A stretch of DNA of 64,000 nucleotides from a virus, in IMG/VR virus record IMGVR_UViG_3300023176_007781, positions 27,209-91,208 of that record. One strand, given 5' to 3'. The notes below the pieces were generated by a model. The model did no database searches, was not told the origin of the DNA, and saw only the letters and a program-made list of their open reading frames with translations. Both the position numbers and the translations under genes were made by a program. Shown here piece by piece: positions 9,554 to 48,471 of this stretch (position 1 is its first letter; the number at the start of each line of letters is the position of its first letter).

Positions 9554-9554
9554 T

Positions 9555-21398: not shown

Positions 21399-21411
21399 GA
21401 TATTACCCCCC

Positions 21412-22308: not shown

Positions 22309-22347
22309 TTAATTACCTTTTATTTAATTTTAGTATTAAATGTAATA

Positions 22348-22965: not shown

Positions 22966-22976
22966 GGTTGTCCCCC

Positions 22977-23735: not shown

Positions 23736-23741
23736 GTAATA

Positions 23742-25233: not shown

Positions 25234-25244
25234 TGATTTACTCC

Positions 25245-25565
25245 TTATTGTATATTCATTTGACTTTCAAAATGTAGTTGAACAGCTGCTAATACTCCCG
25301 CTTCAGCATCTTCACAGCCCATCTCAATACAGCACTCTCTTACACATTTATGCATAGTGATACTAAAACGTCGACCCTGCATTAATTCAAGTTCGACTTT
25401 CGTACGATGTAGATTTAGTTTTTCTATACATTTCTTGATGCATTCTTCAACAATATCAGCTGACGACTCGTTCAGAGTGCTGAATGCGTACGCGTTCCAC
25501 AATCTTCTGTGTCTTGCATACTCTTCCTTAATAATACGTTTTAGTGTCTTTCTAGATATTTTCAT
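25245..25565 (-). CDS. Small A-tagged protein with paired cysteines
   Basis: The 106-residue protein has a long A-tag, MKISRKTLKRIIKEEYARHR, and then a spacer to STLNE (Glu33). The mature part has five cysteines in ECIKKCIEKL, KCVRECCIEMGC and a final acidic stretch. The C-x3-C spacing, repeated after about 25 residues, resembles a coiled-coil-helix (CHCH-like) or metal-binding hairpin. It could be disulfide-bonded after delivery. No family is recognised. Confidence 0.75.
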   Translation of the reverse strand: MKISRKTLKRIIKEEYARHRRLWNAYAFSTLNESSADIVEECIKKCIEKLNLHRTKVELELMQGRRFSITMHKCVRECCIEMGCEDAEAGVLAAVQLHFESQMNIQ

Positions 25566-25581
25566 ATTTATCTCCTAACTA

Positions 25582-26217: not shown

Positions 26218-26218
26218 G

Positions 26219-27022: not shown

Positions 27023-27042
27023 AGAAGCCTCCTTTGTTATGA

Positions 27043-27489
27043 TTAGGTGTTTTCTTCATCAGTACCGGGCATGACACCATACTTTTCGTATTCCCAACCA
27101 TCTTCTTGCCAATCGACAACATCCGGTGATACAGATCTCAATTGATTTTTTCTCCTTCTGTCTGAAGGCAATTCTCCACCTTCAGGTACATCATGATATT
27201 CTTTCCAGATGGTCAGAGCACGAAACAAAATATTGTAACACTCTTGGTCCTTTCCTTCTCGAGCAGACTTAAGTCCGTTAGCAGGATTCTCACCTAAAAG
27301 AAACGCAAAAGCTAGTTGTTCCTCTGTCGCTTCAGGAAACAATTCTTTTAATTGCAAACACATCTCATGAACAGGGTGGTGGTTTTTCATGCCTAGGTGA
27401 TACCCAACAGTGCCGGCAATGCCTTCTTTTATAACTTCCTGATATTCTTCTCGAATAATTCTTTTGAGTTGTCTTTTTGTAATTTTCAT
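27043..27489 (-). CDS. A-tagged small protein
   Basis: The 148-residue protein starts with MKITKRQLKRIIREEYQEVI and KE (Glu22). The mature protein is mostly helical in its first two-thirds (GYHLGMKNHHPVHEMCLQLK; EATEEQLAFAFLLGENPANG) and acidic at the end. The LKELFPEATEEQLAFAF stretch resembles a UBA-like three-helix bundle (CUE type: LkelFPeatee.l..aL). Such a bundle in a phage would be curious, and I consider it a weak similarity. Confidence 0.76.
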   Translation of the reverse strand: MKITKRQLKRIIREEYQEVIKEGIAGTVGYHLGMKNHHPVHEMCLQLKELFPEATEEQLAFAFLLGENPANGLKSAREGKDQECYNILFRALTIWKEYHDVPEGGELPSDRRRKNQLRSVSPDVVDWQEDGWEYEKYGVMPGTDEENT

Positions 27490-27516
27490 TTTATACCCCT
27501 TTTTGATAATTTCATT

Positions 27517-27603
27517 TTATAACCCTTTAGCATCCATCTGACCATCTTTGTATGCTTCCATCGCTTGTTCATAGTCATTCGGATAATCGTATTTTTGTGT
27601 CCT
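27517..27603 (-). pseudogene. Possible remnant of a reading frame
   Basis: The gap between two A-tagged genes contains an open frame RTQKYDYPNDYEQAMEAYKD and GQMDAKGL before a TAA at 27517-27519. It has no start codon at its beginning and follows an in-frame stop, but the composition looks protein-like. It may be the C-terminal stub of a decayed tagged gene or simply chance. Confidence 0.3.
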
Positions 27604-27608
27604 CTATT

Positions 27609-28415
27609 TCAGTTCTCTAACAATGGCATATACCAACCATCAGCAATTTGACCAGTGTAGTACCATTTCATTGCTGTCTTATATTGTTTTTCTAAACTTG
27701 AAACGAGGGTTTCCATGTCTGCCAATAATGTTTCGCCTCTGTAAGAATAATTAGAAACTATTTCTTCGCGATCATCCGCATATTTAGCATCTGTCAAGTA
27801 TTCCTCTATCTTGGCTTTCGCTGTAAGAATATCTTTGAGGGCAAGCTCGCTATAATAATCAAAAAGTCTAGATATGGCGTTTGTGCCAGTGTCTCTACCC
27901 CAAGGATTAGCTACACCGCTGGTCGAGTATATCTTGTATGCAGCTTTGTACACTATATTATAGTCATGATTTTCAGTTGCTAGCAATTTCTCAACTGTTG
28001 GAGGAACAGACTGTCGCCTTCTATGTAATAAATTCGCTGGATCCTCTGGGTCTGGGATATAATCTTCTGAGTGCATGCGATATAAAATATCTTGCTCTTC
28101 AGTGAAACCCTTACTTGAATCGTACCAACCAAACGGTTCGTTAACAACAGGACCAACTAATGCATCAGCTTGATGCGGATCAGTATTACGCAAATTTGCT
28201 ACCTTATCACTATATTTCTTTTTTTGCTCCGGAGAAAAATATGTCTCTGGAAACTTCCGCGACCACTTGCCCTGTTGCATCAGAGACTTCCAGTGCACGG
28301 GTTGGTATGTATGCGGCAAAGAAGCCACAACACGATTAGGCTCCATCATTTGAGATGATATAGCCTCTCGTATGACCAATCGCAGCTGCTTTAATTGTTT
28401 TTGTCTTCTATTCAT
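27609..28415 (-). CDS. A-tagged protein, PHTYQ paralogue 2
   Basis: The 268-residue protein starts at 28415, where MNRRQKQLKQLRLVIREAIS follows a GAGGGA ribosome site; the longer frame from 28445 lies inside the upstream gene. The tag is divergent but keeps the K/R-rich helix and VIRE. Its body matches 26219-27022 over its length (SLPHTYQP, ALVGPVVNEPFGWYDSSKGF, EYLTDAKYADDREE, KQYKTAMKWYY). The pair is the clearest A-tag duplication with a long conserved body. Function unknown. Confidence 0.78.
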   Translation of the reverse strand: MNRRQKQLKQLRLVIREAISSQMMEPNRVVASLPHTYQPVHWKSLMQQGKWSRKFPETYFSPEQKKKYSDKVANLRNTDPHQADALVGPVVNEPFGWYDSSKGFTEEQDILYRMHSEDYIPDPEDPANLLHRRRQSVPPTVEKLLATENHDYNIVYKAAYKIYSTSGVANPWGRDTGTNAISRLFDYYSELALKDILTAKAKIEEYLTDAKYADDREEIVSNYSYRGETLLADMETLVSSLEKQYKTAMKWYYTGQIADGWYMPLLEN

Positions 28416-28752
28416 ATATAGTCCCTCGAGGCGGTGTTGGTCCATAAACAGTTATATCTCTCATCTTTGGATCCGGATGACGCCTAGGCATTAAAATACC
28501 AGCTGATATACAATCCTGAATTAATGAAACACAAGTTTCCATATCAGCCTCCTCACCAAAAAGCTGTTTGTAAACCTGCCCGGCACAATGACAACAAACA
28601 TAACCATTCTTACTTGCCATAGCTTCCAACTGTTCTACACAATCCAACCAAACATCATCGAAAGCACTCTCATTAATACTATGTACCCGCGCTGCGCGGC
28701 GCGCATACTCTTCTCGGATAATTTTTTTCAACTGTCTTTTTGTAATTTTCAT
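28408..28752 (-). CDS. A-tagged small protein
   Basis: The 114-residue protein has MKITKRQLKKIIREEYARRA and a long spacer to SINE (Glu28). The mature 86 residues contain five cysteines (CVEQL, CCHCAG, CVSLIQDC), of which CCHC could bind a metal. The C-terminus (RRHPDPKMRDITVYGPTPPR) is proline-rich. It has no recognised family. The stop codon overlaps the start of the next gene by a few bases. Confidence 0.75.
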   Translation of the reverse strand: MKITKRQLKKIIREEYARRAARVHSINESAFDDVWLDCVEQLEAMASKNGYVCCHCAGQVYKQLFGEEADMETCVSLIQDCISAGILMPRRHPDPKMRDITVYGPTPPRGTIYE

Positions 28753-28769
28753 ACATTCCCCCCGCTTAT

Positions 28770-29084
28770 CTATCTATTACCGCCGGGTTGCTTTTCCAAC
28801 CACCGATGTAACCGTTTTTCTGATATACCCCGGGATTCACATGTCCAATTAACCATATCCTGGATAGACTTGTCAAACCCGGTCTCCAGTTCCATTAACA
28901 TGAAATTAATAGCTATATTCGCAATATCCTCTCTGCTTAATAACTTGCCAACATCAGAAGCCATTTTAGCATCACTCTTGCTTATAGCCTTTCTCCGTCT
29001 CTCATATTTTTCTTCGCCTATAGATTCCGCGCCAGCTATATGCTCTCTTATTATTCGTCTCAACCGCTTTTTAGATATTTTCAT
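28770..29084 (-). CDS. A-tagged small protein
   Basis: The 104-residue protein starts at 29084 (MKISKKRLRRIIREHIAGAE and SIGE, Glu24), because AAAGG lies seven bases before this ATG and it preserves the tag; the frame is open six codons further up. The mature part is helical (LLSREDIANIAINFMLMELE, TGFDKSIQDMVNWTCES) and ends basic. Its EDIANIAINFMLMEL helix could pack against another subunit. Function unknown. Confidence 0.76.
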   Translation of the reverse strand: MKISKKRLRRIIREHIAGAESIGEEKYERRRKAISKSDAKMASDVGKLLSREDIANIAINFMLMELETGFDKSIQDMVNWTCESRGISEKRLHRWLEKQPGGNR

Positions 29085-29110
29085 AATATAACCTTTGTAC
29101 ATGCATGTAG

Positions 29111-29530
29111 TTATCTACGTGGACCTTCTAACAAAGCTTTGTACATACGGGCCATCCGTAACAAACTTTCCGCCTGTTTTACTTCACCTACTTCACCATC
29201 TAGTCCACCCAGCTGTGATAGATATTCTTTCATTCCACTTAAATTTTCAATAGCTTTGGAAACACTTCCACTTAACATGTCCTTTTCGTACGGTGAGAGA
29301 TTCTTAGGTGGTCTCCCATCTTGCAAAACCTGAAGATAACCGGAATATACGTGATACATTCGCGGAGCACCGCCATGAGCTGCATGCAGTTTAGCCAAGC
29401 TATCAAATCGCTTTCTTGCTTCTTCGTATGGCGTCATGTTACGCATATCTTCATTTAGCATTTTACGTATACGCAAACGTGTATACTCCTCTTTTATAAT
29501 TCGTCTCAATTGCCTTTTGGATATTCTCAT
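29111..29530 (-). CDS. A-tagged small helical protein
   Basis: The 139-residue protein has a full A-tag, MRISKRQLRRIIKEEYTRLR and IRKMLNE (Glu27). After the predicted cut it is helical throughout, with KRFDSLAKLHAAHGG, YLQVLQDGRPPKNLS and a final MARMYKALLEGPRR. No enzyme motif is visible. It follows the upstream A-tagged gene by two bases. Confidence 0.78.
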   Translation of the reverse strand: MRISKRQLRRIIKEEYTRLRIRKMLNEDMRNMTPYEEARKRFDSLAKLHAAHGGAPRMYHVYSGYLQVLQDGRPPKNLSPYEKDMLSGSVSKAIENLSGMKEYLSQLGGLDGEVGEVKQAESLLRMARMYKALLEGPRR

Positions 29531-29532
29531 AA

Positions 29533-29988
29533 TTAAATCCCCCCAAATATCATATCTTCTAATTCATCATACATGTCCAATATGCTTTTATATTCGCCTA
29601 TCTCTTTACCGATCTGAGCTTCTTTGTCTTTATCAGACCAAGCGCGGTACTCCTCTCTTTCTAGGTTATTAAGTCTCTTCTTAATTTCCTTCTCAACTTC
29701 GCCACGTAATTTACTTTTATCAAGCCCATATTTTCTTGAATTTGCGATTTCTCGTGCCCACTCAGCAACTTCTTCTAGACTTTTGTAATCTCCGTACATA
29801 TCATACCCGGGTTCATTTTCATGGTGTAAGAAATAATCCATCCATTGGATCAACGAATCAGCAATATCACTCACGTACATATCACTTTGCATGTAACCGC
29901 CAGTGGCTTCGTTAAGCATTTTACGCACTTTTAACCGCGTATATTCTTCTCGTATAATTTGTCTCAATTGTCTTTTAGATATTCTCAT
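29533..29988 (-). CDS. A-tagged small helical protein, first of the A-tag operon
   Basis: The 151-residue protein has MRISKRQLRQIIREEYTRLK and VRKMLNE (Glu27), nearly identical to the tag of its downstream neighbour. The mature part is charged and helical (IADSLIQWMDYFLHHENEPG; KSKLRGEVEKEIKKRLNNLE). Upstream lies the GC-rich non-coding stretch, then a TATAAT-containing leader (near 30030), so this is probably the first gene of the A-tag transcription unit. A GGGAG ribosome site precedes the ATG. Confidence 0.8.
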   Translation of the reverse strand: MRISKRQLRQIIREEYTRLKVRKMLNEATGGYMQSDMYVSDIADSLIQWMDYFLHHENEPGYDMYGDYKSLEEVAEWAREIANSRKYGLDKSKLRGEVEKEIKKRLNNLEREEYRAWSDKDKEAQIGKEIGEYKSILDMYDELEDMIFGGI

Positions 29989-32175: not shown

Positions 32176-33639
32176 TTAGAATGGGACGACGTCGTCGACG
32201 TTGTAATATTTTACCATCTCAATGTTTTTGGCTGTTTTTTGGTGGTTTTTCCATGCTAGAGGGGTGCCATTACCTGACATGGCTATGGCGGCTATGATAT
32301 CTTTGTCTATCGTATGACTTTCATAGATTACTTTTTTGGACATGTGGTTTATTATTTGCATGGTGCGTCTGAATTTTTGGATATTTTGTGTAATGTTGTT
32401 GTTACTTTGGTCGAACACGTTGAATGGTTGCAAGTATTGGGTGAATGTTAATAGGTAGTCTATTTCTTTAAATGATTGTTTGAGCAGGCGATATCTTTCT
32501 TCTGCTTTGCTATTGTCTTGTGAGGTTTGGCTTAGTAGTGCATTGAAGTCAAATATTAATTTGTTTGCGATTCCTGTTCGTTTGTATTGGGTTTGTGGGC
32601 CGACGTGTTTATATTGGTTGAGTATAAAGTCATTAATGTTATTGGACATTTTGTTTACTTCGATTATGGCGTTCATAATTGAGAGTTCCCGTTTATCAAA
32701 TTGGAATTTGTTGATGATGCTGGGTGGCAGGATGATGTAGTTATCTAGTTTCCAGTTGTCTACTACTATTTCATTATATGGGTCGGCACCGTGGAGGAGT
32801 TTATCGTCTGGTCCTGTTATAAGTCCTTTAATGCCGCCTTTCCGCATTAGGGTTGAGAAGTCGGCAAACTTTTGGAAGTCGGCGTCTTTTTCTTTTGCGA
32901 GTTGTGTCCATTGTGTTAGTATGTCATGACTTCCGGCGAATTTGATATCTCCTTTTATTTTAACGCATATTACTTGTTTTATTGGCGAGAGGTTGTTTGT
33001 TATTTGCATTATTCCGGGATTTACTTTTGTTTTGGATGTTTGGTTTTTAGTTCCGTCCCATCCATAGGTTGAGAAGTCGTCTGAGCTTGTTTTCCAGTAT
33101 TGGCCGGTCATGATATCGATGAATGCTTTTATTAGTGCTTTAGGTTCTCTGGATTCTTTCCCTTCTTTAAATGCATTTATTCCGTGCCATGTTTCGAATG
33201 ATTCCCAGAATTCAGGGTGTTTATTTGCCTCTTCTTTCCACGCGTTTTGTAATATTTGGTCGAATCTTTTAGCAAATTTGCTTCTCCCAGTGGTTTCTGC
33301 GCGTTCGAAGCCTGATCCGCTTTCTTTATCATATAACATTTGAAGGGCACTTAAGACGGTTTCTGTTGTTCCGCCTTTTGATTCGCCTACTGCTATGACG
33401 CTACGCATATCTTGTTCTGACATGTTGTATTGGTCAAGTATTTTATTTAGTTTTCTTTTGACTATCTTTTTATATTTGTCCGCTTTTTTCTCGAGCTCAG
33501 GTTTGTTTTTGACTAATTTATCTATTTTTTCTGGTGTGAATTTTAGCGTTGAAAAATAGTCGTTTATGTCATCAAATATTGATTTATAAACATTTTCTGA
33601 TCTTTCTAATATTATTTTTTGTATGTATTGTCTTATCAT
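32176..33639 (-). CDS. B-tagged protein with the shared G-x-A-D / NE domain
   Basis: The 487-residue protein begins MIRQYIQKIILE (Glu12). A lysine-rich helical region follows (about 30-70). The central domain contains CVKIKGDIKFAGSHDIL at about 225-241 and YNEIVVDNWKLDNYIILP at about 288-305. The same two blocks occur in the B-tagged proteins at 42945-44117 and 54592-55398, so they share a domain that I recognise from other large-phage proteins but cannot name with certainty; an ADP-ribosyltransferase-like fold is possible. The base composition is opposite in strand bias to most of the window. It overlaps the next gene by four bases. Confidence 0.78.
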   Translation of the reverse strand: MIRQYIQKIILERSENVYKSIFDDINDYFSTLKFTPEKIDKLVKNKPELEKKADKYKKIVKRKLNKILDQYNMSEQDMRSVIAVGESKGGTTETVLSALQMLYDKESGSGFERAETTGRSKFAKRFDQILQNAWKEEANKHPEFWESFETWHGINAFKEGKESREPKALIKAFIDIMTGQYWKTSSDDFSTYGWDGTKNQTSKTKVNPGIMQITNNLSPIKQVICVKIKGDIKFAGSHDILTQWTQLAKEKDADFQKFADFSTLMRKGGIKGLITGPDDKLLHGADPYNEIVVDNWKLDNYIILPPSIINKFQFDKRELSIMNAIIEVNKMSNNINDFILNQYKHVGPQTQYKRTGIANKLIFDFNALLSQTSQDNSKAEERYRLLKQSFKEIDYLLTFTQYLQPFNVFDQSNNNITQNIQKFRRTMQIINHMSKKVIYESHTIDKDIIAAIAMSGNGTPLAWKNHQKTAKNIEMVKYYNVDDVVPF

Positions 33640-34172
33640 GGTACATGTTCTCCGTATTGAGTTTTTAGTTGGTGAAGTTTATTGTTGATGGTATCTTGTG
33701 CTTCGGGTATGAGTTGTTCAGATTCTGCTTGCCATTCATCCCAGTAGAGCATTCCGTAATGGCGTACGGTGCTTTCGGGCATATCGGAAGGTGCTGGCAT
33801 ACCGCGGCGTTGTTTTTGTATTTTCATTGCCATTTCTGCTGGTGATTTTTGTTGCCATGATTGGTAGTAATTTTTGGCGTGCCATTGGAGGAAGTCTGAG
33901 TGATCGAGGATATCTTGTGTAAGGTTTTCTTTTAGTGTTTCTTGTTCGATTAATTTTAGATGTGTATATATTTGCAATATTAGGTTTTCGGTATCATATT
34001 TGAAGGATGTGAGTGTTTTTATTGCGAACAAGAATTTTTCTTGGTGTAATTTATTTTTAAGCAATTTTTCGCCTAGGCTTTGTTTGATCATATTAACGAG
34101 TGTTGTTTCTCTTTTAGATTCAATGTCTTCTATAGATTCTGATATGATGTTTTGTATATATTTTCTAATCAT
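33636..34172 (-). CDS. B-tagged protein, tandem paralogue
   Basis: The 178-residue protein has MIRKYIQNIISE (Glu12). The body shares IEQETLKENLTQDILDHSDF and the PSDMPESTVRHYGM block with the gene immediately upstream (EQETLKDNLTKEIVKHSEF; SNDMDSHTARGYGM), so the two are tandem duplicates. It is helical and charged with no recognised enzyme motif. It overlaps both neighbours by one to four bases. Its coding strand is C-rich, unlike genes outside this block. Confidence 0.8.
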   Translation of the reverse strand: MIRKYIQNIISESIEDIESKRETTLVNMIKQSLGEKLLKNKLHQEKFLFAIKTLTSFKYDTENLILQIYTHLKLIEQETLKENLTQDILDHSDFLQWHAKNYYQSWQQKSPAEMAMKIQKQRRGMPAPSDMPESTVRHYGMLYWDEWQAESEQLIPEAQDTINNKLHQLKTQYGEHVP

Positions 34173-34696
34173 TATTCAAATAACCCATATTTTTTGGCGA
34201 ATTTATCTGCTTCGTGTTGAATTCTATTCTGTGCTGCAGCTGTACGTTTTCTGACGTGTTCATCGAATACATGCTGAGGTATCATGCCATATCCGCGTGC
34301 AGTGTGAGAATCCATGTCGTTGGACGCAGGTTGACCATATATTGCGCCGACTTCGTTTGCTGCTTCGAAGCCTGCATCTCTGTTTAGTATCTTGTTATAT
34401 TCTTTTGTGAGAATTCTTTTAAAGAATTCTGAGTGTTTTACTATTTCTTTTGTTAAGTTATCTTTTAGTGTTTCTTGTTCGCTGTATTTTAAATTATTGT
34501 AATAGAGGCTTGTTGATGCGCTGGCTTTTATGTTTTTTATTTTGGCGAGTTTAAGTGCATATAAAAATCTGGTTACACTAGTGTCTGTGCTGAGCAATTT
34601 TTGTATGCTTTTTCTTATCATTTCATCGATGAGAAACTTTTCTCTTTGTTTGATGTTTGATTCCTGTATAACTTTTCTTATATATTTTTTAATCAT
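34172..34696 (-). CDS. B-tagged protein, tandem paralogue
   Basis: The 174-residue protein begins MIKKYIRKVIQE (Glu12) and is the tandem paralogue of the gene just downstream, sharing the ETLKxNLT helix and the DMxxxTxRxYGM block near residue 130. The C-terminal helix (EHVRKRTAAAQNRIQHEADK) is basic. A promoter-like TTGCAA-N16-TATAAA lies upstream at the point where the strand composition changes, so it may be the first gene of its transcription unit. Confidence 0.8.
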   Translation of the reverse strand: MIKKYIRKVIQESNIKQREKFLIDEMIRKSIQKLLSTDTSVTRFLYALKLAKIKNIKASASTSLYYNNLKYSEQETLKDNLTKEIVKHSEFFKRILTKEYNKILNRDAGFEAANEVGAIYGQPASNDMDSHTARGYGMIPQHVFDEHVRKRTAAAQNRIQHEADKFAKKYGLFE

Positions 34697-34713
34697 TGTT
34701 TCTTCCTGGCGTT

Positions 34714-34741
34714 TTTATATTTTTTAAAAACCATTTTGCAA
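34714..34741 (-). promoter_or_regulatory. Promoter-like element at the edge of the composition block
   Basis: TTGCAA (34736-34741) and TATAAA (34714-34719) on the minus strand are 16 bases apart. The element lies in the short gap between the ART gene and the first gene of the skewed block. Confidence 0.45.
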
Positions 34742-34748
34742 CTCTTTA

Positions 34749-35594
34749 TTATTTAAATTTTTCGATATTTTTCACAAACTGTTTGATTTCTCCGGGCCCG
34801 CGTCTACTTTGTCTCATCCCCACTAGTATTTGTTTTCGCACTTGTTTCCACTGTAGGTCATCAAAAAACACAGGTTTATATATCATTATACCAACACAAA
34901 GAACGCTATCTTTGCCGATCAATAATGACTCTTTTTCCGAACCCCAAGGGTTAAACAATGTATTGCCACTGTCGATGCCCATTTTGCCTCTTTCCCAAAG
35001 TTCTTGTGCTATTCTAGAAACTAAATCAACATTAAAAAACACTTTTGGATCGTTTTCCCTTTTGTGCCAAAAAATAACTGGCACCTCATTAGCCTCCCCA
35101 GTGATCTGGACATTGTATTGTTTTGAAAACTTTAGTACTGAAGACAAGTGTGCTGACCAGCTATCGACTTCTCCTTGCGGTTGATAGTCAAAATTACCTG
35201 TAAATATTAACCAATTATCTGCTTGGTTGTCTGTGAAAATATTTCGACATGATGGCCGAAAATACTTTGTGTTTTTACTTAGGAATTCTCCTACTGCTTT
35301 AGGGCTTAATGTTAATCCACGATAATAATGATCATAGTTTGTTAACAAATTTAACAATTTCGTACTAGTAAAAGTTTGCGGACCTTTGAAATATTTTTTT
35401 ACCCAAGCATGCAGTGATTCTTCCTTGTGAAGCACTACATATTCATGAAGGCTAACAATAAATTCCTGTTCAGCTTCAGTATTTTTTTCATATGGCATAT
35501 TATCAAAAAGCTCATGGAATTCTTCAGCATTAAAATAATCACCAAAAACTGAGTTGCTTTCATTAATAATTTTTTCTATATATTGTCGTAACAT
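34749..35594 (-). CDS. B-tagged ADP-ribosyltransferase (R-S-E type)
   Basis: The 281-residue protein starts at 35594, where MLRQYIEKIINE gives the tag (Glu12); the 24-codon extension upstream lies inside the previous gene. It has the three conserved regions of R-S-E ADP-ribosyltransferases: YYRGL with Arg92, DSWSAHLSSVLKFS with Ser145-Trp-Ser147, and SEKES with Glu220-x-Glu222, in the right order. These enzymes move ADP-ribose from NAD to a protein; ExE usually means transfer to arginine. T4 Alt is a packaged ART that modifies host RNA polymerase on entry, so a tagged, packaged ART is a close functional parallel. The target cannot be read from sequence. Confidence 0.72.
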   Translation of the reverse strand: MLRQYIEKIINESNSVFGDYFNAEEFHELFDNMPYEKNTEAEQEFIVSLHEYVVLHKEESLHAWVKKYFKGPQTFTSTKLLNLLTNYDHYYRGLTLSPKAVGEFLSKNTKYFRPSCRNIFTDNQADNWLIFTGNFDYQPQGEVDSWSAHLSSVLKFSKQYNVQITGEANEVPVIFWHKRENDPKVFFNVDLVSRIAQELWERGKMGIDSGNTLFNPWGSEKESLLIGKDSVLCVGIMIYKPVFFDDLQWKQVRKQILVGMRQSRRGPGEIKQFVKNIEKFK

Positions 35595-35605
35595 TTTTAT
35601 ACTCT

Positions 35606-36346
35606 TTACTTTATGTGCTCTATTTGCGTAGCCATTTTTTTGGTTGCTTCTAAGAACTGCTGACACATCATAAATATATTATCTAAAGTTAACTCATATT
35701 CTTCAAAAGGGTCAGATTGACCAATAGCTTTCATCATTGCAGATTCAATATCATACTCTTCTTTAGGTATGTTTTTCCACCATGATCTTAAATTATTATT
35801 TTTATCATAATAATCTTTATAAAAAGTAACTATTTGCTGATGAATAATAGGTCTCATACGCCAATTGTCAGGATTACTGTACCCAACGCCGTGTGTTCCG
35901 CCAAGAGCTTTATTTTTAAAATTAATTAAATCAAAATTAAAATTAGCTTTCCAACCACGACAATGCATGACGACGGAAATGTTGGTAAAAAAATCAGAAT
36001 CAAAGTCTACATAAAATCTTATTTCGCCTTTTTTAAAACGCCTGGGGTTTTGAAACGTAGAGGTGTTGTTTTCATAATGTACAAGCCCTAAATTTTTTAG
36101 ACGATCGATTAAAATTTTCTCAATCTTTTCATTATCTAAAAAGAAAACTTTTTCATAATTCTGGTCTAACGTGTCACCTAATGCTAGTGCTTGTTCTATG
36201 TTGTCATCTGCCAAATTTGCAAGTTTTTGAAAGTTTTGTGATGATACGCCTGGTGCAATTTTTTTATAACGTGATGATTGTTTTGCCATGCTTCTAGTGA
36301 CGCCTGGACCTTCGCTAATAATTTTTCTAATATATTTTCTTAACAT
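35606..36346 (-). CDS. B-tagged hypothetical protein
   Basis: The 246-residue protein begins MLRKYIRKIISE (Glu12), then a basic segment with SRYKKIAPGVSSQNFQKLAN. The middle has a strand pair (GEIRFYVDFDSDFFTNISVV) and the C-terminus is helical and acidic. The SSRYK element also occurs near residue 31 of the 42945-44117 protein. I recognise no enzyme family. It lies in tight file with the genes around it. Confidence 0.76.
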   Translation of the reverse strand: MLRKYIRKIISEGPGVTRSMAKQSSRYKKIAPGVSSQNFQKLANLADDNIEQALALGDTLDQNYEKVFFLDNEKIEKILIDRLKNLGLVHYENNTSTFQNPRRFKKGEIRFYVDFDSDFFTNISVVMHCRGWKANFNFDLINFKNKALGGTHGVGYSNPDNWRMRPIIHQQIVTFYKDYYDKNNNLRSWWKNIPKEEYDIESAMMKAIGQSDPFEEYELTLDNIFMMCQQFLEATKKMATQIEHIK

Positions 36347-36347
36347 T

Positions 36348-37052
36348 TTACTTCTCCTTTCTAAAATCTGGCCAACCTAATTTTTCTCTAAATTCTTCTC
36401 TGTATTTTTCTGGATCCTGTCGATAAGTGCCTACCTTTATTCTTTTTAATCTAAATAAGTCTTTTATTATTGGTTGATGCGCTTTACCAATATCATTGAT
36501 TTTAAAGTATTTGTATTTTGACCAGCCATACTTTTTATCATGATAAATGTCTAAGTTAATATTTCTGTGGTGATCTCTGGGATTCATTTTACATGGAAGT
36601 GGTGCTGGTGTCACATCATATCTAGTTGTAACATATTTTTTCCAAACGTTTTCTGCTTCTGCGGAAACTGTATGTCTGTCGCACATAAGCCCAGTGTCAC
36701 CAGCTATTTCAATTGCAATGTCATATAATAATGGACCAGCGCTTTCCGTTTTTGCGTACGCATTAACGACTTCGTATGTCTTACACGTATGATTATACTC
36801 TACGTCTATATGATCAGTCATGCGAACAAGCCCTGACCCATCTCCACGCGCAGCTTCTAAACTTACTCTAAATGCTTCACCGGCCGGTTTTAAAGGCATG
36901 GTCTTATTTTGCATGCCATCGACCACAATAAAAAATTTTTCTGCATACTTTGGATCTGTGTAATATTCTCCTGGTTCATCTAAATTACTGATATCATGTG
37001 GGCTCATCATACCTTCCATAATTTTTCTAATGTATTTTTTTAAATTCTTCAT
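36348..37052 (-). CDS. B-tagged GNAT-like domain protein
   Basis: The 234-residue protein has MKNLKKYIRKIME (Glu13). At about 95-155 it contains the repeated domain of this window: an upstream CKTYEVVNAYAKTES, then AGPLLYDIAIEIAGDTGLMC, DRHTVSAEAENVWKKYVTTR. This matches the GNAT pattern in which a G-x-G turn, here GPLLYD, starts the CoA-binding helix and A-x-x-VW-x-x-Y stands for the later motif. GNAT enzymes transfer acyl groups to proteins, antibiotics or other amines. The similarity is by pattern and needs a profile search. The domain occurs in eight or nine proteins here. Confidence 0.6.
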   Translation of the reverse strand: MKNLKKYIRKIMEGMMSPHDISNLDEPGEYYTDPKYAEKFFIVVDGMQNKTMPLKPAGEAFRVSLEAARGDGSGLVRMTDHIDVEYNHTCKTYEVVNAYAKTESAGPLLYDIAIEIAGDTGLMCDRHTVSAEAENVWKKYVTTRYDVTPAPLPCKMNPRDHHRNINLDIYHDKKYGWSKYKYFKINDIGKAHQPIIKDLFRLKRIKVGTYRQDPEKYREEFREKLGWPDFRKEK

Positions 37053-37369
37053 ACTTTTGCCTTTGGTTTGTTAACTATATAACCCGCTGTAACTAACCAG
37101 TTTTCAATTCTGCCACTTTCTAATATTATTGTTGCTAGCCAAGCATTTTCACCACGAGTACGTTTGTTTGTTTCAATAATTATGGCGCTAGCAAGCAACT
37201 TACTTTCTAATTTTTTAATAGAAATTTCATCTGGTAAATCTTCTTCATCAGCAGCTGAAATAAATTTAAACATCTTTGCGCGATATGTAATACTAAAGCC
37301 TAAATCAATATCAACTTCTATAGAGCCATCTGCATAGCATTTTATCAATTTAGCTTTGTACTTATTCAT
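37049..37369 (-). CDS. SNase-like OB-fold protein with degenerate active site
   Basis: The 106-residue protein resembles short phage thermonuclease-like (SNase) proteins: YKAKLIKCYADGSIEVDIDL and GFSITYRAKMFKFI at the N-terminus, and later a WLATIILESG strand and VTAGYIVNKP. The catalytic DGDT is DGSI here and the usual acidic and arginine residues are missing or shifted, so it may bind rather than cut nucleic acid. It is untagged, in contrast to its neighbours, and overlaps the next gene by four bases. Confidence 0.55.
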   Translation of the reverse strand: MNKYKAKLIKCYADGSIEVDIDLGFSITYRAKMFKFISAADEEDLPDEISIKKLESKLLASAIIIETNKRTRGENAWLATIILESGRIENWLVTAGYIVNKPKAKV

Positions 37370-37372
37370 TTT

Positions 37373-38218
37373 TTACCCATTTATTAAAGCATCTATTTTA
37401 TTTTTTTGACTTTTTGCAAAAGGACTCATGAGTTTTAATCGCTTATTACTTGCAAACCACGTTAGAAGACCCGGGTTTTTTTTGTAATAAACTTTTGAAA
37501 ATACATTGTTTGGGTCCTGAACATATTTTAAATATTTCGATGAAGGAGCTAAAGGCTTTGCAGTGTTTTTTAAAACGTCATCCTGGTGATCAACAAAATA
37601 TCCATATAATTCCATTGGGTCATCTGCCGGGCCATACAATTCTTGTACTTCAGGGTATGCATTTTCTACACCAATATCTATGGTTTTGCCATGTTGCTCC
37701 ATACTCCATTTGTCTGCACTCATAATATCTGCGCAATCATCTTCTGGGTCGTCTGTCAATGGACTGCCCGGCAAATCTAATTGCACAGTTTCTATGTCAG
37801 ATCTCAATTTAAGATATTTTTCCCAAACTTCTTGCGCTGCTACAGAAACTTCATATCTATCATTAACCAATCCGTGACCGCCGATTAAATACACCCATTC
37901 CATTAATGCATCGTAGCACACTGGTCCAAAACCCAGGACATGTGCCTTTGCCCACTTAACCATATATGCATCATTACATGGGCCGAAAGCTGTTTTATAT
38001 TTACCTTTTCTCATATGACTAGTTCTTGTGTACAAAAAGTCTATTGTTACTAACAACAAATCACCATTAAATAGTTTAATGTATCCATCACCCGCGTCAG
38101 CCATTTTTATGTGTAAATGTGGATCTTTTATTAGGCTTAACAAACTCCATATCTTTTCATCCGGCAAATCATTTGCTTCAACTAATATTGATCTAATATA
38201 TTTTCGTAAATTTTTCAT
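37373..38218 (-). CDS. B-tagged GNAT-like domain protein
   Basis: The 281-residue protein begins MKNLRKYIRSILVE (Glu14). It carries the same domain as its neighbours: CNDAYMVKWAKAHVLGFGPV, CYDALMEWVYLIGGHGLVND, RYEVSVAAQEVWEKYLKLRS and DIETVQLDLPGSPLTDDPED. The GPVCYD replaces GPLLYD. The C-terminal third is family-specific and may bind the substrate. Its start overlaps the stop of the metalloprotease-like gene (ATGA). Confidence 0.62.
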   Translation of the reverse strand: MKNLRKYIRSILVEANDLPDEKIWSLLSLIKDPHLHIKMADAGDGYIKLFNGDLLLVTIDFLYTRTSHMRKGKYKTAFGPCNDAYMVKWAKAHVLGFGPVCYDALMEWVYLIGGHGLVNDRYEVSVAAQEVWEKYLKLRSDIETVQLDLPGSPLTDDPEDDCADIMSADKWSMEQHGKTIDIGVENAYPEVQELYGPADDPMELYGYFVDHQDDVLKNTAKPLAPSSKYLKYVQDPNNVFSKVYYKKNPGLLTWFASNKRLKLMSPFAKSQKNKIDALING

Positions 38219-39504
38219 GGTATTCTCAAATTTTTAAACTTGTTCATCTTTTGTCTTAAATATTCTTTTTTAATTGCACGTGACAATTGTTTAACTAACA
38301 TGTTTTTAAACTTATCTTTATCTGGAAACTCTGATGCTATTTTATTATAATTTTTAACGGTCCAGTTGTAATCATATTTTTGAAACATAGAAAACATATC
38401 ATCAAAGAAACGTTTGATACCAGTAGGAGCTTTGTTAATGTTGACTAAATCATTTGCTATTGCAGTAAATGCTTGATCAAAATCTTCATTTTCTAATTTG
38501 CTTTGTATTGTATCAAAATTATCCTGTACGTATTCAACAGCTGTGTGGTATATGTGAGCTTGTACTTCATGTGACTCTAAAAAATAGTCTGTAGTAGGAT
38601 AAACTTTTTTAATCTGTATTTTTTTTTGTTTTGACAAAAGATCTTTAAATTTTACGCCACCGAAAATAAAATCTTTGTTATCAATATCAAAAAGATGACT
38701 ATAAGTAAGCGTTATATCGTTCTTTTTAATTGTTTCTTTGTAGTCTGCTAGATTTTGTTTATAAAAAGCGCCTTTTCTGTCAGCTGAAAGTAGGCTGGCA
38801 GCACTATCACTAATTTCAATTTTCTTAATTTTGTTTAAACGTTGTACAACTATTCTTCCAAGTAACAACCAATATGAACCAACAAACTGTAAAAAATGTA
38901 TAAATTCATGTATAATAGTAGCATTTGCTCTCTTGGACATGGCAGTTTTAAGTTTCATATCTATTATTGGCATCTCAATACCATCGCCTGTCGGCAAATT
39001 ATTAGCAATATCTGCCTTAAATCTTCCTTCCGCACCTAGCATTGCAAAACCAGCTAGTATTCGAAAGCCAATAAACATATCTATATCTCGCCGATTTTCA
39101 GCACAAAATTCACTGGTTTTTTTGATTAATTTTTCCCTTTTTTCATAAAGCACGTTACGTTCATTTTTTATTTTTTCTACAGTGCTACCTTTAAACCGGT
39201 TTTTTTGATTAACATTTTCGAAATAATCCTGTTCAAACATTTCAAATATTAAATCATTTATTGCATCATCTAAATTTTTATTATCTATTTTTAAACTTGC
39301 ATGTATGTAATTGCCGATTTCAAGTAGAGGTGTGCGATATGGAAATTCTGCTGTTGAATAATGCACAGTATTTCTGCCTTCTGTTGATTCGCCTGAAACT
39401 AGTTTATCTTTATGTGCAATAATAGTGTTTAATGCTTTATCGTGACCTAATAAATTAATGCTTTCATTAATTGTTTGTCTTATATATTGTCGTAAATGAT
39501 TCAT
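38215..39504 (-). CDS. B-tagged zinc metallopeptidase-like protein with a C-terminal A-tag-like end
   Basis: The 429-residue protein begins MNHLRQYIRQTINE (Glu14). It has the zincin motif HEFIH at about 199-203 within ATIIHEFIHFLQFVG, and later ESHEVQAHIYH near 310-320, which could supply a third ligand. Zincins of this layout are often peptidases. The C-terminus SRAIKKEYLRQKMNK resembles the A-tag, giving this protein both kinds of signal. If packaged and active it might act during entry on the cell wall or on a host protein; the substrate is unknown. Confidence 0.68.
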   Translation of the reverse strand: MNHLRQYIRQTINESINLLGHDKALNTIIAHKDKLVSGESTEGRNTVHYSTAEFPYRTPLLEIGNYIHASLKIDNKNLDDAINDLIFEMFEQDYFENVNQKNRFKGSTVEKIKNERNVLYEKREKLIKKTSEFCAENRRDIDMFIGFRILAGFAMLGAEGRFKADIANNLPTGDGIEMPIIDMKLKTAMSKRANATIIHEFIHFLQFVGSYWLLLGRIVVQRLNKIKKIEISDSAASLLSADRKGAFYKQNLADYKETIKKNDITLTYSHLFDIDNKDFIFGGVKFKDLLSKQKKIQIKKVYPTTDYFLESHEVQAHIYHTAVEYVQDNFDTIQSKLENEDFDQAFTAIANDLVNINKAPTGIKRFFDDMFSMFQKYDYNWTVKNYNKIASEFPDKDKFKNMLVKQLSRAIKKEYLRQKMNKFKNLRIP

Positions 39505-40190
39505 ACTTCAATCCCCATAGCTCTCACCCGATCTCCATGTACTGCTTCTCCGTTCATGATAAATTTGAACGTAAGCAATCCCATATCGTATAAAGCATTT
39601 ATCGTGTTAGTATGCATAGGTTTCTTTATAAATTTGTTTGTTGAAAAGTGATTTGCATAAGTTAACTCATCTATTTCGTTCGAGGATTTGGATCCATCAT
39701 ACTGCCTCTGGGAACAATCGTCAGAAGGATCGTTCGGTGTTATCCACGGTTCATCTCTGTAATCAAGCAATATTGCTTCAACGTCATCCCGAGCTCCTAG
39801 ATAATGATACCAGACTTTTCTTGCCTTTAAAGATGTTATATGCCGATCAGACATGATCCCATCTTCACCAGCAAACTCCATCGCAAGATCATATAAGAGT
39901 GGACCTAAGCCAGAGACAGATTCAACAATGCCAGCATCCTCAACAGACCAAGCGCTATCACAGTTGCCTTCCCCATAGTAGTTATCATTTTGCCAAACCA
40001 AATATAACTGCCCAACGTTCCCAAACCTGGGATTTGGATCTCCTGTTGCTGGTCTTTTCTGAGCCTGAAGCCAGATCTGAGATGGACCAACTTTGAATAC
40101 TATATGGATGTTTTTGTCTTTCATTAGTGATGGTGTATACATCCCTTCTGTTAACAATATGTTCCTTATATACTTTCTTAATTGTTTCAT
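39501..40190 (-). CDS. B-tagged GNAT-like domain protein
   Basis: The 229-residue protein has MKQLRKYIRNILLTE (Glu15), then the common domain at about 75-155: NCDSAWSVEDAGIVESVSG, LGPLLYDLAMEFAGEDGIMS, DRHITSLKARKVWYHYLGAR, DDVEAILLDYRDEPWITPND and PSDDC. It is one of the best matches to the shared pattern. The N-terminal strands (IHIVFKVGPSQIWLQAQ) may be the family's substrate part. ATGA overlap with the gene after it. Confidence 0.62.
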   Translation of the reverse strand: MKQLRKYIRNILLTEGMYTPSLMKDKNIHIVFKVGPSQIWLQAQKRPATGDPNPRFGNVGQLYLVWQNDNYYGEGNCDSAWSVEDAGIVESVSGLGPLLYDLAMEFAGEDGIMSDRHITSLKARKVWYHYLGARDDVEAILLDYRDEPWITPNDPSDDCSQRQYDGSKSSNEIDELTYANHFSTNKFIKKPMHTNTINALYDMGLLTFKFIMNGEAVHGDRVRAMGIEV

Positions 40191-40882
40191 TTTACTTTCT
40201 CTGCTATGTCAAAAAAATTAGAGCCATCTCTTTTTAATAATTTTGATTTTCTTCTGTCAAGTCTATAAACAGCCATAGGTTTCAATGGACCTTCGTGAGC
40301 AATGTCAGCACCCATATCAATCAAACTTAATTTTTCTTCATCACTCATTACATCTACTAAATATCTTCCCCCCGTCGCAAAAGCATCATATTCACCGCCA
40401 ACTAAGGCATCATACAAACTATAGTAACCCAAACCTTGTCCTTCATCATCGTATGGCTCTTCTTCTAAATAATATTTTGCCATTTGGTCAAGCCAGGGCA
40501 CCTCTTTATTGTATATCATTTCTCCTATGCTATCTTCATCTGGATGTATATTAGATAAATCTTTGCCAGCAATTGCAAATACGTATCCGTATCTACCATA
40601 CTTTTCCTCTAACTTTGATGTGCCATGACCCGCCATATCTCCGCCAAGTGCATACATTTGTACGGTCGCAATACTTGGTGTTATATAAACCATACCATCT
40701 ACTGGTCGAAGCGGACCTGACCTATTTGATAGATCGGGTGGTTTTATCTCGCCAGCTGACATTATAGACTTTGCATATTTTTCAATCGGTGTACCATGAT
40801 AATAAACAGTGTCAGAGTGATCAGTGCTAGGTGCTGCCATCTCTCTTAGCAAGTTTTGTATGTATAATCGCAAATGTTTCAT
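40187..40882 (-). CDS. B-tagged ADP-ribosyltransferase-like protein (H-Y type)
   Basis: The 231-residue protein has MKHLRLYIQNLLRE (Glu14). TVYYHGTPIEKYAKSIMSAG with His29 and GMVYITPSIATVQMYA with Tyr66 match the first two conserved regions of the H-Y-E branch of ADP-ribosyltransferases (YHGT, then a Y-[LI]-T strand). The final acidic residue cannot be placed with certainty; YEFD- and EDE-rich stretches follow. It could use NAD to modify a protein, nucleic acid or small molecule. It is the second or third ART-like tagged protein in the window, which supports a packaged-effector theme. Confidence 0.68.
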   Translation of the reverse strand: MKHLRLYIQNLLREMAAPSTDHSDTVYYHGTPIEKYAKSIMSAGEIKPPDLSNRSGPLRPVDGMVYITPSIATVQMYALGGDMAGHGTSKLEEKYGRYGYVFAIAGKDLSNIHPDEDSIGEMIYNKEVPWLDQMAKYYLEEEPYDDEGQGLGYYSLYDALVGGEYDAFATGGRYLVDVMSDEEKLSLIDMGADIAHEGPLKPMAVYRLDRRKSKLLKRDGSNFFDIAEKVK

Positions 40883-40890
40883 TTTGCCCT

Positions 40891-41361
40891 CTATTTTGGT
40901 GGTAGTGTATCACCGTGAGCCATGGCAACAAGATTTCTAACACGATTTTCTTGGTCCATCGATTTTACTAATTCACCTATGTTTTTAACTTGTTCATTTA
41001 TCTGACCGACTTGATTTTTTATAAAATCTATGTCATCACCGTCAGCATCTTGCTTAACTAAAAAGTTTGAAGTTTTCTGATCTATTTTTTGCACTATTGA
41101 TCCAACAGCTTCTACTCTTTGTTTAATTTGCAACCTCATTTGTTTCTTTTCACTGTCATACTTTGCTATGACATCATCATATCTTTCACGCAGTAATTCT
41201 TGATCACCTTTGTGAATGTTTTGCATTTCTTCTAGTTGAACCTGAAACCTATCTACTAGTGCATCCATTCTGGCTTGCATATTTGTATAAAGCCATATTA
41301 AGAATGCTGCAAATATTCCTAATGAGCCGTGGTCTAATAACATTTCTAATATTTCTGTCAT
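40891..41361 (-). CDS. Holin-like single-helix coiled-coil protein (BhlA/UviB type)
   Basis: The 156-residue protein has a short acidic N-terminus, one transmembrane helix at about residues 13-27 (SLGIFAAFLIWLYTN), then a long charged coiled coil (60-145). This is the layout of BhlA/UviB-type phage proteins, often called holin-like, though coiled-coil bacteriocin-related roles are also reported. It has no tag and lies between tagged genes. Expression late in infection would fit a lysis role. A non-lytic membrane scaffold is the alternative. Confidence 0.55.
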   Translation of the reverse strand: MTEILEMLLDHGSLGIFAAFLIWLYTNMQARMDALVDRFQVQLEEMQNIHKGDQELLRERYDDVIAKYDSEKKQMRLQIKQRVEAVGSIVQKIDQKTSNFLVKQDADGDDIDFIKNQVGQINEQVKNIGELVKSMDQENRVRNLVAMAHGDTLPPK

Positions 41362-41915
41362 TCTTCTTGTCCTCCATGTGTATGTTTAAATGGTCGAATA
41401 TTTCCTACAGCATCATCTGTATTTCTTATGCCTGTGGCTGATCGAGTTTGTTCGTCTATCTCATCTTTAAAAGATGGCACCAGTCCATACATGTCTATTA
41501 CTTCTTTACATTGTTCAGCAATGTGCCTCAGTTCATCAGTATCTCTAACACTAAATGCAAAGTTACCAATGTATGTTTTCTTATTAGCAATAAACCAAAG
41601 GGCAATCATAACTCTATCTGGTGTGTGTAGATTTGAGTATTTTCTAAAAATATCTACATCCCAGCTCCAAAAAGTGTGACGTGCCAAGTCATGAAATTTA
41701 TCCTCTAATGTTTCTTCTTCTGCCATTTCATCTACATCTTCAACAGTACTATACCATTCTTCGCCTATCATGCCCTCACGTAAACACTCATCAAAGTCTT
41801 GTCGAAATTTATCATTTAAACCATAGTAACAATCACTGAAAGTATTCCAGCTTAACCATTGCATGTTGATAGATTCTCTTAAAATATTCCTAATATATTT
41901 TTTTAAATTTTTCAT
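41358..41915 (-). CDS. B-tagged protein, shares a C-terminal domain with the next gene upstream
   Basis: The 185-residue protein has MKNLKKYIRNILRE (Glu14). Its C-terminal half (DRVMIALWFIANKKTYIGNF, TDELRHIAEQCKEVIDMYGL) matches the C-terminal half of the 41928-42935 product (DRAIMALAVVKEDGLDLGML, LDDVAKQVEEACKKFGV). The pair therefore shares a helical domain, with different N-terminal parts. The function is unknown. Its start codon is preceded by a short gap after the larger gene. Confidence 0.74.
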   Translation of the reverse strand: MKNLKKYIRNILRESINMQWLSWNTFSDCYYGLNDKFRQDFDECLREGMIGEEWYSTVEDVDEMAEEETLEDKFHDLARHTFWSWDVDIFRKYSNLHTPDRVMIALWFIANKKTYIGNFAFSVRDTDELRHIAEQCKEVIDMYGLVPSFKDEIDEQTRSATGIRNTDDAVGNIRPFKHTHGGQEE

Positions 41916-41927
41916 AATCAGTACTCT

Positions 41928-42935
41928 TTATCTATACTTGTCTATTTGAGAGCTAGACCAACCTGGTCCAATTTGTTCATCTACATCTCTGTTCCACTGC
42001 ATGTCGCTAATTTTATCTTCGAGGTCTTCAGGCATCATTACACCAAATTTTTTGCAAGCTTCTTCCACCTGTTTCGCTACATCGTCCAAATCAACACTTG
42101 AATAAGTAAGCATGCCTAGGTCTAAACCATCTTCCTTTACCACAGCGAGTGCCATAATTGCTCTGTCGATGTCGCTGAAATAGCCGCTTCGCCAAAAATT
42201 TGAACTTCCGGGGTCTTCGTACTCTTGATCAATAAATTCTTCCACCGACATTTCACTCCACATTGGATCATTTCCGGGTACATAACCTCTATCATCAATA
42301 TCGTGAGTGTCAACAAGCAACTCGTAGATTTCCGGATACATTTCGAAAGCCTGACCTATGGAAGCTGGTTTTGGTTTGATTTCATTAGATGGGTCATGGA
42401 ATAATAGTTTATGAGATTTGATTGCAGCTTTGTTCCATACACAACCCTGATCAATATCATATCCACTTAGCCAGCGCGGTCCATGTGGTAGAGGGCAAAA
42501 TTCAATACCCGCAAACTCGTCAGCAACTGCATGCCAGTCAGGTGAGGCAAAACTCTCACCTTTAACGTATATACTAGTAAATTTTTCAAATGCTTCATCA
42601 CTATCTATTTTACAAACTGCATTAGCATCAGGTTTGTCAATGGTTGTATAATTTACTTCTAATCTGTACAGAAAAGCTCTTCCTTTTTTAAACTGACCCA
42701 TCATATTATCAGGATTTTTAACATATCGAAGCCACTCATCACCGCAAGCATAAAATAAGCCATGAGGTTTTGGCGTAAACTCGCCTGTCGGCTGTTCTAT
42801 GTTATTTAACTTTTCAACATCTAACTCTGATTGTAAAACAGTTAACAACTCACCTTCATCAGCCGGCTGAGTTTTATAATCAAATACAGACAATTCTGTT
42901 AATAGGTTTCTTACATATTTTCTTAATGTTTTCAT
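41928..42935 (-). CDS. B-tagged protein with the GLFYACGDEW domain
   Basis: The 335-residue protein begins MKTLRKYVRNLLTE (Glu14). A central domain has HGLFYACGDEWLRYVK, then VNYTTIDKPDANAVCKIDS, PDWHAVADEFAGIEFCP and YDIDQGCVWNKAAIKS. I know this succession of blocks from other uncharacterised phage proteins, where it recurs with W-[YF]-x-x-G-D-x-W and I-x-x-C-P-x and DxxxGCVWN. It has no assigned activity; a nucleotide-binding or ADP-ribosylation-related fold is possible. The C-terminal helical domain is shared with its downstream neighbour. Confidence 0.72.
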   Translation of the reverse strand: MKTLRKYVRNLLTELSVFDYKTQPADEGELLTVLQSELDVEKLNNIEQPTGEFTPKPHGLFYACGDEWLRYVKNPDNMMGQFKKGRAFLYRLEVNYTTIDKPDANAVCKIDSDEAFEKFTSIYVKGESFASPDWHAVADEFAGIEFCPLPHGPRWLSGYDIDQGCVWNKAAIKSHKLLFHDPSNEIKPKPASIGQAFEMYPEIYELLVDTHDIDDRGYVPGNDPMWSEMSVEEFIDQEYEDPGSSNFWRSGYFSDIDRAIMALAVVKEDGLDLGMLTYSSVDLDDVAKQVEEACKKFGVMMPEDLEDKISDMQWNRDVDEQIGPGWSSSQIDKYR

Positions 42936-42944
42936 TTTGTTTTC

Positions 42945-44117
42945 CTAGTATATTTTATTAGCTTTATTCATTTCATGGTTTTTCTTAACATTAGGCGAGA
43001 ATATGTCTAAAAAACTATCTCCATCAACATCTTCTAAAAACCTATTGTACATATCTTTTGTACTGTCATCTAAATCTTCTTCTTCAAATCGCAATTCATC
43101 TTCTATCATAATTTCTTTTTCTACTGCACATGCATCATAAAAATCTATATCTAAGTAGCCATCTTCATCAATTATTGGTATATCATCATAACATGTATCA
43201 TGGAAAAAATTATCAGATGCTTCAGAATTAAAAAATGCTTGTTTCATTTCACTAGGTATACAAATCGCTACAATTTCCCAGTTGTCAATGATAGCTTCTG
43301 GCCAGTTTAAATCCATGCCGCGGTTTCCATCATCATCTAGTATGTCATCAAAAGGATTTAAGTCCTCTTTTCCTTTTATTATTATATCATATATATTGCT
43401 AATTTCGCCTTCTTTATCTTGCAACATGACGTCATCGCTACCGTATTTAATATTGTCAGCTGCATCATCATCACCCTGTTCAAGTGCTTCAATGTATTCT
43501 CTTGATTTAGAGGCGCGGGTTTCAAGAGATGCAACGTCAGGTCTAGAAGGTACGCCACTAGTTTTGTATTGGTTATACATATATGCTAATTCAGTCGGTT
43601 TTAACATTGTAACCAACTTATTATAATTTTCTCTGTCACGATGTGTAATGTACTTTTTTAGACCTGGATCACGCTTGGCTTTTACTATTTTGTCATACGA
43701 CTTTAACAACTTTAAAAATCTACCCGGCCGACCCGAATCTAAATCAACTTTTGAGGCAAATGTTACATATCCATCAATCACAATGCCTATAACATGCTCA
43801 TCCATCAGCTTAAAAGGTTCGAAAGTTTCTTCAGTTTTGTGGATATATGTATTAATCTCATTTCTTTGTCGACCACGTACATTAAAATATAAATCGACCG
43901 CTTGTTGAAAAGGTGCCCAATGAATATAGGTTAAACCATCTTTTAATCGACTTTGCCCTTTTGCTCCACCAGTTGTTTTCTGAAAAAACTGTTTTAGCTG
44001 TTTTGCTTGGGTACCTTTGTATCTACTAGATCGGTGGTGAAGTAAGTCACCCATCTGTGCTAGCTTCTCACCTTTTTCAGTGATAACATTTCTTATATAT
44101 TTCCTTAAGTCAATCAT
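42945..44117 (-). CDS. B-tagged protein with the shared G-x-A-D / NE domain
   Basis: The 390-residue protein starts MIDLRKYIRNVITE (Glu14). It contains IGIVIDGYVTFASKVDLDSG (Gly116) and further on NWPEAIIDNWEIVAICIP near residue 275, aligned with the two blocks in the 32176-33639 and 54592-55398 proteins. The remaining C-terminal part is very acidic (about 300-370). Upstream of the domain lies YIHWAPFQQAVDLYFNVRG. The shared domain could be ART-like, but the evidence is only the pattern. Confidence 0.74.
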   Translation of the reverse strand: MIDLRKYIRNVITEKGEKLAQMGDLLHHRSSRYKGTQAKQLKQFFQKTTGGAKGQSRLKDGLTYIHWAPFQQAVDLYFNVRGRQRNEINTYIHKTEETFEPFKLMDEHVIGIVIDGYVTFASKVDLDSGRPGRFLKLLKSYDKIVKAKRDPGLKKYITHRDRENYNKLVTMLKPTELAYMYNQYKTSGVPSRPDVASLETRASKSREYIEALEQGDDDAADNIKYGSDDVMLQDKEGEISNIYDIIIKGKEDLNPFDDILDDDGNRGMDLNWPEAIIDNWEIVAICIPSEMKQAFFNSEASDNFFHDTCYDDIPIIDEDGYLDIDFYDACAVEKEIMIEDELRFEEEDLDDSTKDMYNRFLEDVDGDSFLDIFSPNVKKNHEMNKANKIY

Positions 44118-48464: not shown

Positions 48465-48471
48465 ATAATAC

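Follow-up and report, generated by a model that had tools for sequence, protein, structure and literature searches.

A 281-residue protein, P0001, encoded in a viral DNA stretch of 64,000 nucleotides (the window; bases 27209-91208 of the 91-kb virus record G000), joins a short N-terminal tag to three candidate regions of an R-S-E ADP-ribosyltransferase (ART). From these features we propose, at roughly even chances, that it is a head-packaged, injected, Mod-like mono-ADP-ribosyltransferase, Alt-like in its working and outside the Alt family. The tag is well supported and the enzyme moderately: judged from its N-terminus and neighbourhood, P0001 is quite likely packaged in the head, and its motifs make it somewhat probable that it is an ADP-ribosyltransferase. 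The source appears to be a marine T4-like giant phage. What is new here is a Mod-like body behind a capsid-targeting-like tag that is not the T4 one, within a tagged arsenal numbering at least 35 proteins, and this multi-effector tag system is the more interesting part. The features concerned are as follows:

34749..35594, minus strand: P0001, candidate R-S-E ADP-ribosyltransferase with tag (281-aa ORF)
35559..35594, minus strand: B-tag MLRQYIEKIINE, P0001 residues 1-12, an N-terminus type found on 21 other ORFs of the window
35319..35321, minus strand: R92 in the YYRGL motif, a candidate arginine for NAD binding (falls on the catalytic Arg of the ModB family when aligned blind)
35154..35162, minus strand: S145-W-S147, candidate S-x-S strand (blind alignment to the ModB-family S-F-S)
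34929..34937, minus strand: E220-K-E222, candidate catalytic E-x-E (position only, 75 residues past S145)
32176..55398, minus strand: mostly B-tagged gene cluster containing P0001 (ORF map and tag scan)
19749..29988, minus strand: mostly A-tagged gene cluster, MKISKKQLRQIIREEY... then LNE or LQE (ORF map and tag scan)
40187..40882, minus strand: second B-tagged ART-like ORF with YYHGTP, 231 aa (tblastn to Tunturi_5 gp205)

The P0001 gene and its motifs

The initial annotation had placed an ORF at 34749-35594 with no strand given; the ORF is confirmed and lies on the minus strand, running from an ATG at 35594 to a stop at 34749. This ATG follows the upstream tagged gene at a distance of 11 bases, in an operon-like arrangement, and it is preferred over the mechanical ORF start, a GTG 24 codons upstream, because the latter overlaps the preceding gene and would bury the tag. 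P0001 is also present, at 100% identity, in the sister IMG/VR contig G001. The residues that had been singled out are exactly where they were said to be (R92 in YYRGL, SWS at 145-147, EKE at 220-222), they follow the order R-S-E, and the B-tag precedes them. On the other hand, the claim that their spacing reproduces that of R-S-E transferases holds for one interval and fails for the other. S145 and E220 are 75 residues apart, close to the 69-74 of eleven ModB-family proteins, whereas R92 and S145 are separated by 53 residues compared with 26-27 in those proteins, and the R-S spacing is therefore unlike that of T4 Mod.

Motifs of this kind are easily met by chance. The loose set RG..SxS..ExE within broad distances occurs in 2789 of 50000 shuffles of P0001 (5.6%) and in 32 of 600 other ORFs from the window and other phage contigs; its presence in P0001 is not above chance and proves little alone. 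A stricter pattern (aromatic-aromatic-R-G; hydrophobic-x-S-x-S/T-x5-A/V-x2-aromatic; E-x-E-hydrophobic) matches P0001 and 13 of 13 Mod proteins with no hit among 50000 shuffles or 600 ORFs, these figures being post hoc in that the pattern is the T4 Mod consensus loosened to admit P0001 and written after P0001 had been seen. Less biased than either is a blind MAFFT alignment of P0001 with the eleven ModB-family proteins, which puts R92-G93 on the catalytic R-G columns and S145/S147 on the S-x-S columns; both regions (R-G plus S-x-S/T) were matched by none of 250 shuffles and by 2 of 242 decoy ORFs. V153 and F156, which follow the SWS, fall on the A..F columns of the family, with V replacing A. 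E220-K-E222 did not reach the ModB-family E-x-E column in the blind alignment; across the alignments made, that column was nearly always occupied by residues 210-212. Trimming P0001 and the references brought the E-x-E into register in one of many settings only, and this was rejected as forcing. An R-S-E transferase is a plausible assignment, with the R-G and S-x-S regions aligned blindly to ModB and the glutamate region not.

It might be argued that P0001 is packaged and injected but is no ADP-ribosyltransferase, its motifs being coincidental in an orphan fold with, for instance, an anti-restriction or nuclease-inhibiting role like that of T4 IPI. The frequency of the loose motifs, at about 5% of ORFs and shuffles, the unaligned E-x-E and the silence of the profiles described below are all in keeping with this idea, as is the diversity of the T4 internal proteins, which include an anti-restriction protein (PMC3012670), and most of the tagged neighbours of P0001 likewise show no recognisable domain. 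Against it, two motif regions align blindly in an extended context (VDSWS...V..F), with no match among 250 shuffles, and a tagged protein of a related phage, G017, has a W-containing S motif together with a clear E-x-E. We regard this alternative as possible, at well below even chances. It is very improbable that P0001 is an ART-like protein that has lost, or is losing, its catalytic activity and is retained as an internal protein with a binding or structural role. The unaligned E-x-E, the extended R-S spacing, and the SWS and V153 standing in place of the usual S-T/F-S and A would suit such a protein, but the ORF is intact, all three residue classes are present in order, and the tagged G017 protein carries the full R-S-E.

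Comparison with Mod and Alt

Direct comparison with the T4 enzymes gives weaker signals than the blind alignment. The Smith-Waterman score of P0001 against ModB is reached by 10, 39 or 74 of 500 shuffles, depending on the matrix, and that against ModA is no better than shuffles. With HMMER profiles of ModA/ModB and of Alt, P0001 does not score above decoys; hhalign, at probabilities below 5%, places it 30th of 345 for Mod, 77th for Alt and 3rd for both, and 155 of 3000 shuffles score at least as high on a three-block PSSM. PF03496 does not match P0001 at E<=1 or anything in the genome at E<=10, and neither PF03496 nor PF01129 has a match across five phage records. The silence of Pfam on P0001 weighs little, because Pfam also misses T4 ModA and ModB themselves; T4 Alt matches PF03496 at 5.8e-36.

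Homologues of P0001 were found neither in Pfam, PHROGs, NCBIfam, the PDB, annotated phages, plasmids and GTDB contigs nor in 37 related phage records, and an IMG/VR search with the whole protein and a 76-aa core returned the sister contig only. AlphaFold2 models were unusable, both from the single sequence (pLDDT 34.4) and with eleven ModB-family rows added (pLDDT 40.3). Seven of the 12 top PDB matches of the latter model are ART entries, led by SdeA, a toxin/immunity pair and Vis, none of them significant (E>=0.8) and all obtained from an alignment that presupposes the ART answer. These matches are not counted as evidence of fold, because a control PDB search with a row-free model of P0001 gave no ART matches.

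Similarities to Alt and to the Mod enzymes concern different parts of the protein. The propeptide of T4 Alt, MELITE, ends at ITE-6 (PMC5694885) and resembles the tag of P0001 in being short, N-terminal and terminated by I-x-E; the R-S-E chemistry proposed for P0001 is a second likeness. Alt, a packaged ADP-ribosyltransferase of RNA polymerase, is however 682 aa long; it has an extensive N-terminal domain, matches PF03496 and carries a further propeptide at its C-terminus, removed by a cut at LTE-619 (PMC5694885), whereas P0001 has 281 aa, no PF03496 match and no [LI]xE past residue 222. With ModA and ModB, P0001 shares the R-G and S-x-S regions of the blind alignment, the S-E spacing and a compact domain; it differs from them in lacking a significant profile match, in an R-S insert of about 27 residues, and in its tag, which ModA and ModB do not have. 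Since P0001 fails the PF03496 and architecture tests on one side and the Mod profile test on the other, it is assigned to neither family. The earlier description of P0001 as a possible Alt analogue therefore survives as regards the logic of delivery, in the propeptide-like tag ending in I-x-E, and not as regards the catalytic part, which resembles Mod (P0001 neither matches PF03496 nor has the large N-terminal domain).

N-terminal tags

Two classes of tag were found by the tag scan of the window, the B-tag on 22 ORFs and the A-tag on 13, giving at least 35 carriers, every one of them encoded on the minus strand. The B-tag has the consensus MKxLRKYIRNIL.E and the A-tag MKISKRQLRQIIREEYxR...LNE, and the sequences behind them are mostly unrelated. 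An [LI]xE motif is present in 21 of 22 B-tags, in most cases with S, G or A as the next residue, and in 13 of 13 A-tags, compared with 5 of 20 untagged ORFs (first 19 residues); at the tag end this motif is in part a product of the pattern that defines the tags. That does not apply to a second [LI]xE, which 11 of the 13 A-tags have at residues 21-31. The prohead protease gp21 of T4 cleaves after L/I-X-E (PMC9026906), and it is propeptides of 10-20 residues ending in L/I-x-E that bring Alt and the internal proteins of T4 into the head (PMC9026906, PMC5694885). We read the tags as a packaging signal because they are common to mostly unrelated proteins and end at the gp21 motif, and because relatives with the same tags encode a gp21-type protease; by analogy with T4, this role in head packaging is well supported. 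In P0001 the predicted cut lies past I-N-E (INE-12), ahead of S13.

The closest known counterpart is the capsid targeting sequence of T4 IPI, IPII, IPIII and Alt, which is likewise short and N-terminal, sits on unrelated proteins and ends in L/I-x-E. The tags differ from it in sequence, in forming two classes in one genome, and in number, at least 35 carriers here as against a handful in T4. None of the papers searched gives the tag sequences.

Tagged proteins recur in families. A paralogous family with the motif GxGPLLYDxAxE...DRxxVSxxAxxVWxxYxxxRxDV has at least seven copies in the window (36348-49140) and members in the related phages G002 and G017 (L042:10405-11211, L157:2495-3184). A motif like 'EA[IL][IV]DNWxI..I.[VIL]P' is common to tagged proteins at window 32176-33639 and 42945-44117 and at L038:12285-13229, L052:7399-8007 and L157:178-999; the N-terminus at L038:12285 is a third tag-like type, MKLIMESWRKFLLRE. 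One family is tagged at window 54592-55398 (MRLVRSYIRNILSES) and apparently untagged in G003 (L055:1273-2097) and G017 (L170:7641-8456), at 49% and 46% identity, a case of tag gain or loss. Given these apparently untagged orthologues, the protein of 54592-55398 works without its tag.

The last family bears on another account of P0001, according to which it is an ART made inside the infected cell, as T4 ModA and ModB are, with an N-terminal helix that serves localisation or chaperone contact and not packaging. Besides the apparently untagged relatives of 54592-55398, the body of P0001, closer to ModB than to Alt, is in line with it. We nevertheless find this account improbable: 35 tagged proteins end in the cleavage motif of a protease family found in tag-bearing relatives, and a short N-terminal propeptide ending in L/I-x-E is the capsid-targeting design of T4. 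Packaging in the head is the reading retained below.

Related phages

With a PrkA-like gene as bait, 40 loci of the phage group were recovered. G003 (267 kb) has many genes in common with G000, including a PrkA-like protein that is 75.5% identical, and bears 15 A-tags and 11 B-tags; its major capsid protein (E=1.1e-64) and prohead protease (E=1.8e-27) are both of T4 type. G017 (293 kb) carries 10 A-tags, 14 B-tags and a gp21-type prohead protease (E=8.9e-25). A gp21-type protease is present in the tag-bearing G002, G003, G017 and G040; the T4-type major capsid protein and prohead protease were not found in G000 or G001, both of which are partial fragments.

A B-tagged cluster of G017 (L157:178-4313) holds homologues of the tagged proteins at window 37373-38218 and 41928-42935. 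It also contains a B-tagged protein of 174 aa (MNESALRKYIRELLIE; L157:1430-1951) with the motifs YIYRGM, ESWTTSMDVAASFA and EDESEVRIPKG, which aligns unprompted with T4 ModA/ModB at R, S and E-x-E, at an hhalign probability of 10%. Judged by these motifs, this protein is the more convincing R-S-E transferase, its case being clearer than that of P0001. In common with P0001 it has the tag class, a cluster with shared tagged families, YRG plus SW[ST], and a long R-S spacing (47 residues, 53 in P0001); it differs in its length and in its clear E-x-E alignment to Mod, and the pairwise similarity is marginal, the Smith-Waterman score being reached by 11, 20 or 43 of 500 shuffles, depending on the matrix. 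The alignment sets R on R (R92 on R30), SWS on SWT (S145-W-S147 on ESWTTSMDVAASF) and F on F. Because a clearer R-S-E protein is found in G017 with a B-tag and in a similar cluster, it gives the strongest context support for the idea of a tagged transferase. A PDB search with the G017 protein led to light-harvesting proteins through low-scoring stretches, which were rejected as noise.

Two further gene groups were noted. A phage-borne three-gene set at L032:7336-12058, consisting of a serine kinase (PrkA/YeaG-like) and two neighbours, one of which matches a 'sporulation protein' PHROG, is conserved at 55-77% identity in G003 and G017. Carbamoyl-phosphate synthase subunits and adenosine-deaminase-like and ClpS-like proteins, named by eye, lie on the phage contig at L038:1573-8617.

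Proposed role of P0001

By analogy with the T4 capsid targeting sequences, the 12-residue B-tag would bring P0001 into the prohead core during head assembly, where a gp21-type prohead protease, of the kind found in the relatives and not in this fragment, would cut past INE-12, so that the head would contain the mature enzyme, about 269 aa long. P0001 would then go into the cell together with the DNA. There, R92 and S145 may hold NAD+ and E222 may activate the transfer of ADP-ribose, with a protein or nucleic acid of the host as acceptor, ahead of any phage gene expression. The T4 enzymes ModA and ModB come into play later in infection (PMC9503650). From Alt, ModA and ModB, a natural first guess for the target would be the transcription or translation machinery; host RNA polymerase, which had been suggested for P0001, is a guess by analogy that nothing in the analysis supports.

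The initial annotation had also considered a packaged ART from an unrelated protein to be a parallel solution to that of Alt. The novelty is only partial: it has been argued, by inference, that about 44% of phage ARTs occur in contexts suggesting head packaging (PMC9503650), so a packaged ART is no new kind. A wider proposal, which we put forward tentatively, is that one group of marine T4-like giant phages loads its heads, by means of two distinct cleavable tags, with a large, fast-changing arsenal that can reach 35 proteins or more in a single genome, that this arsenal includes several unrelated ADP-ribosyltransferases, and that P0001 represents a new Mod-like R-S-E family acting at entry and not once phage genes have been expressed. 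If this were true, a 12-residue tag would have moved a Mod-like transferase, made only after infection in T4, to the packaged stage, and tag recognition alone would list injected phage effectors from sequence, among them dozens of proteins here that domain libraries miss.

Other candidates and features of the window

The second B-tagged ART-like ORF, at 40187-40882, matches part of gp205 of Tunturiibacter phage Tunturi_5 (tblastn E=2e-16, 39.8%). This gp205 is annotated as 'ADP-ribosyltransferase exoenzyme toxin', and a Pfam search of it gave no ART domain. A third B-tagged candidate, at window 17767-18789 (IVHYTAEANEASIKSKGLKPTGG), is like H-Y-E type ARTs by eye. In G005, a polyvalent protein of 737 aa (L046:15936-18149) starts with a B-like tag, MASEINSIRKLIREVLED; Pfam recognises an ART-PolyVal domain in it (2.5e-11), and it is weakly similar to GNAT.

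Two giant proteins, of 1583 and 1652 aa, are encoded at window 4829-9580 and 9555-14513; their N-termini resemble each other, and neither has a match in Pfam. The window also carries a phage-borne tRNA-Leu (2298-2369) and a phage-borne tmRNA (16615-16962) with the tag ANNNKHFEAAAIAA.
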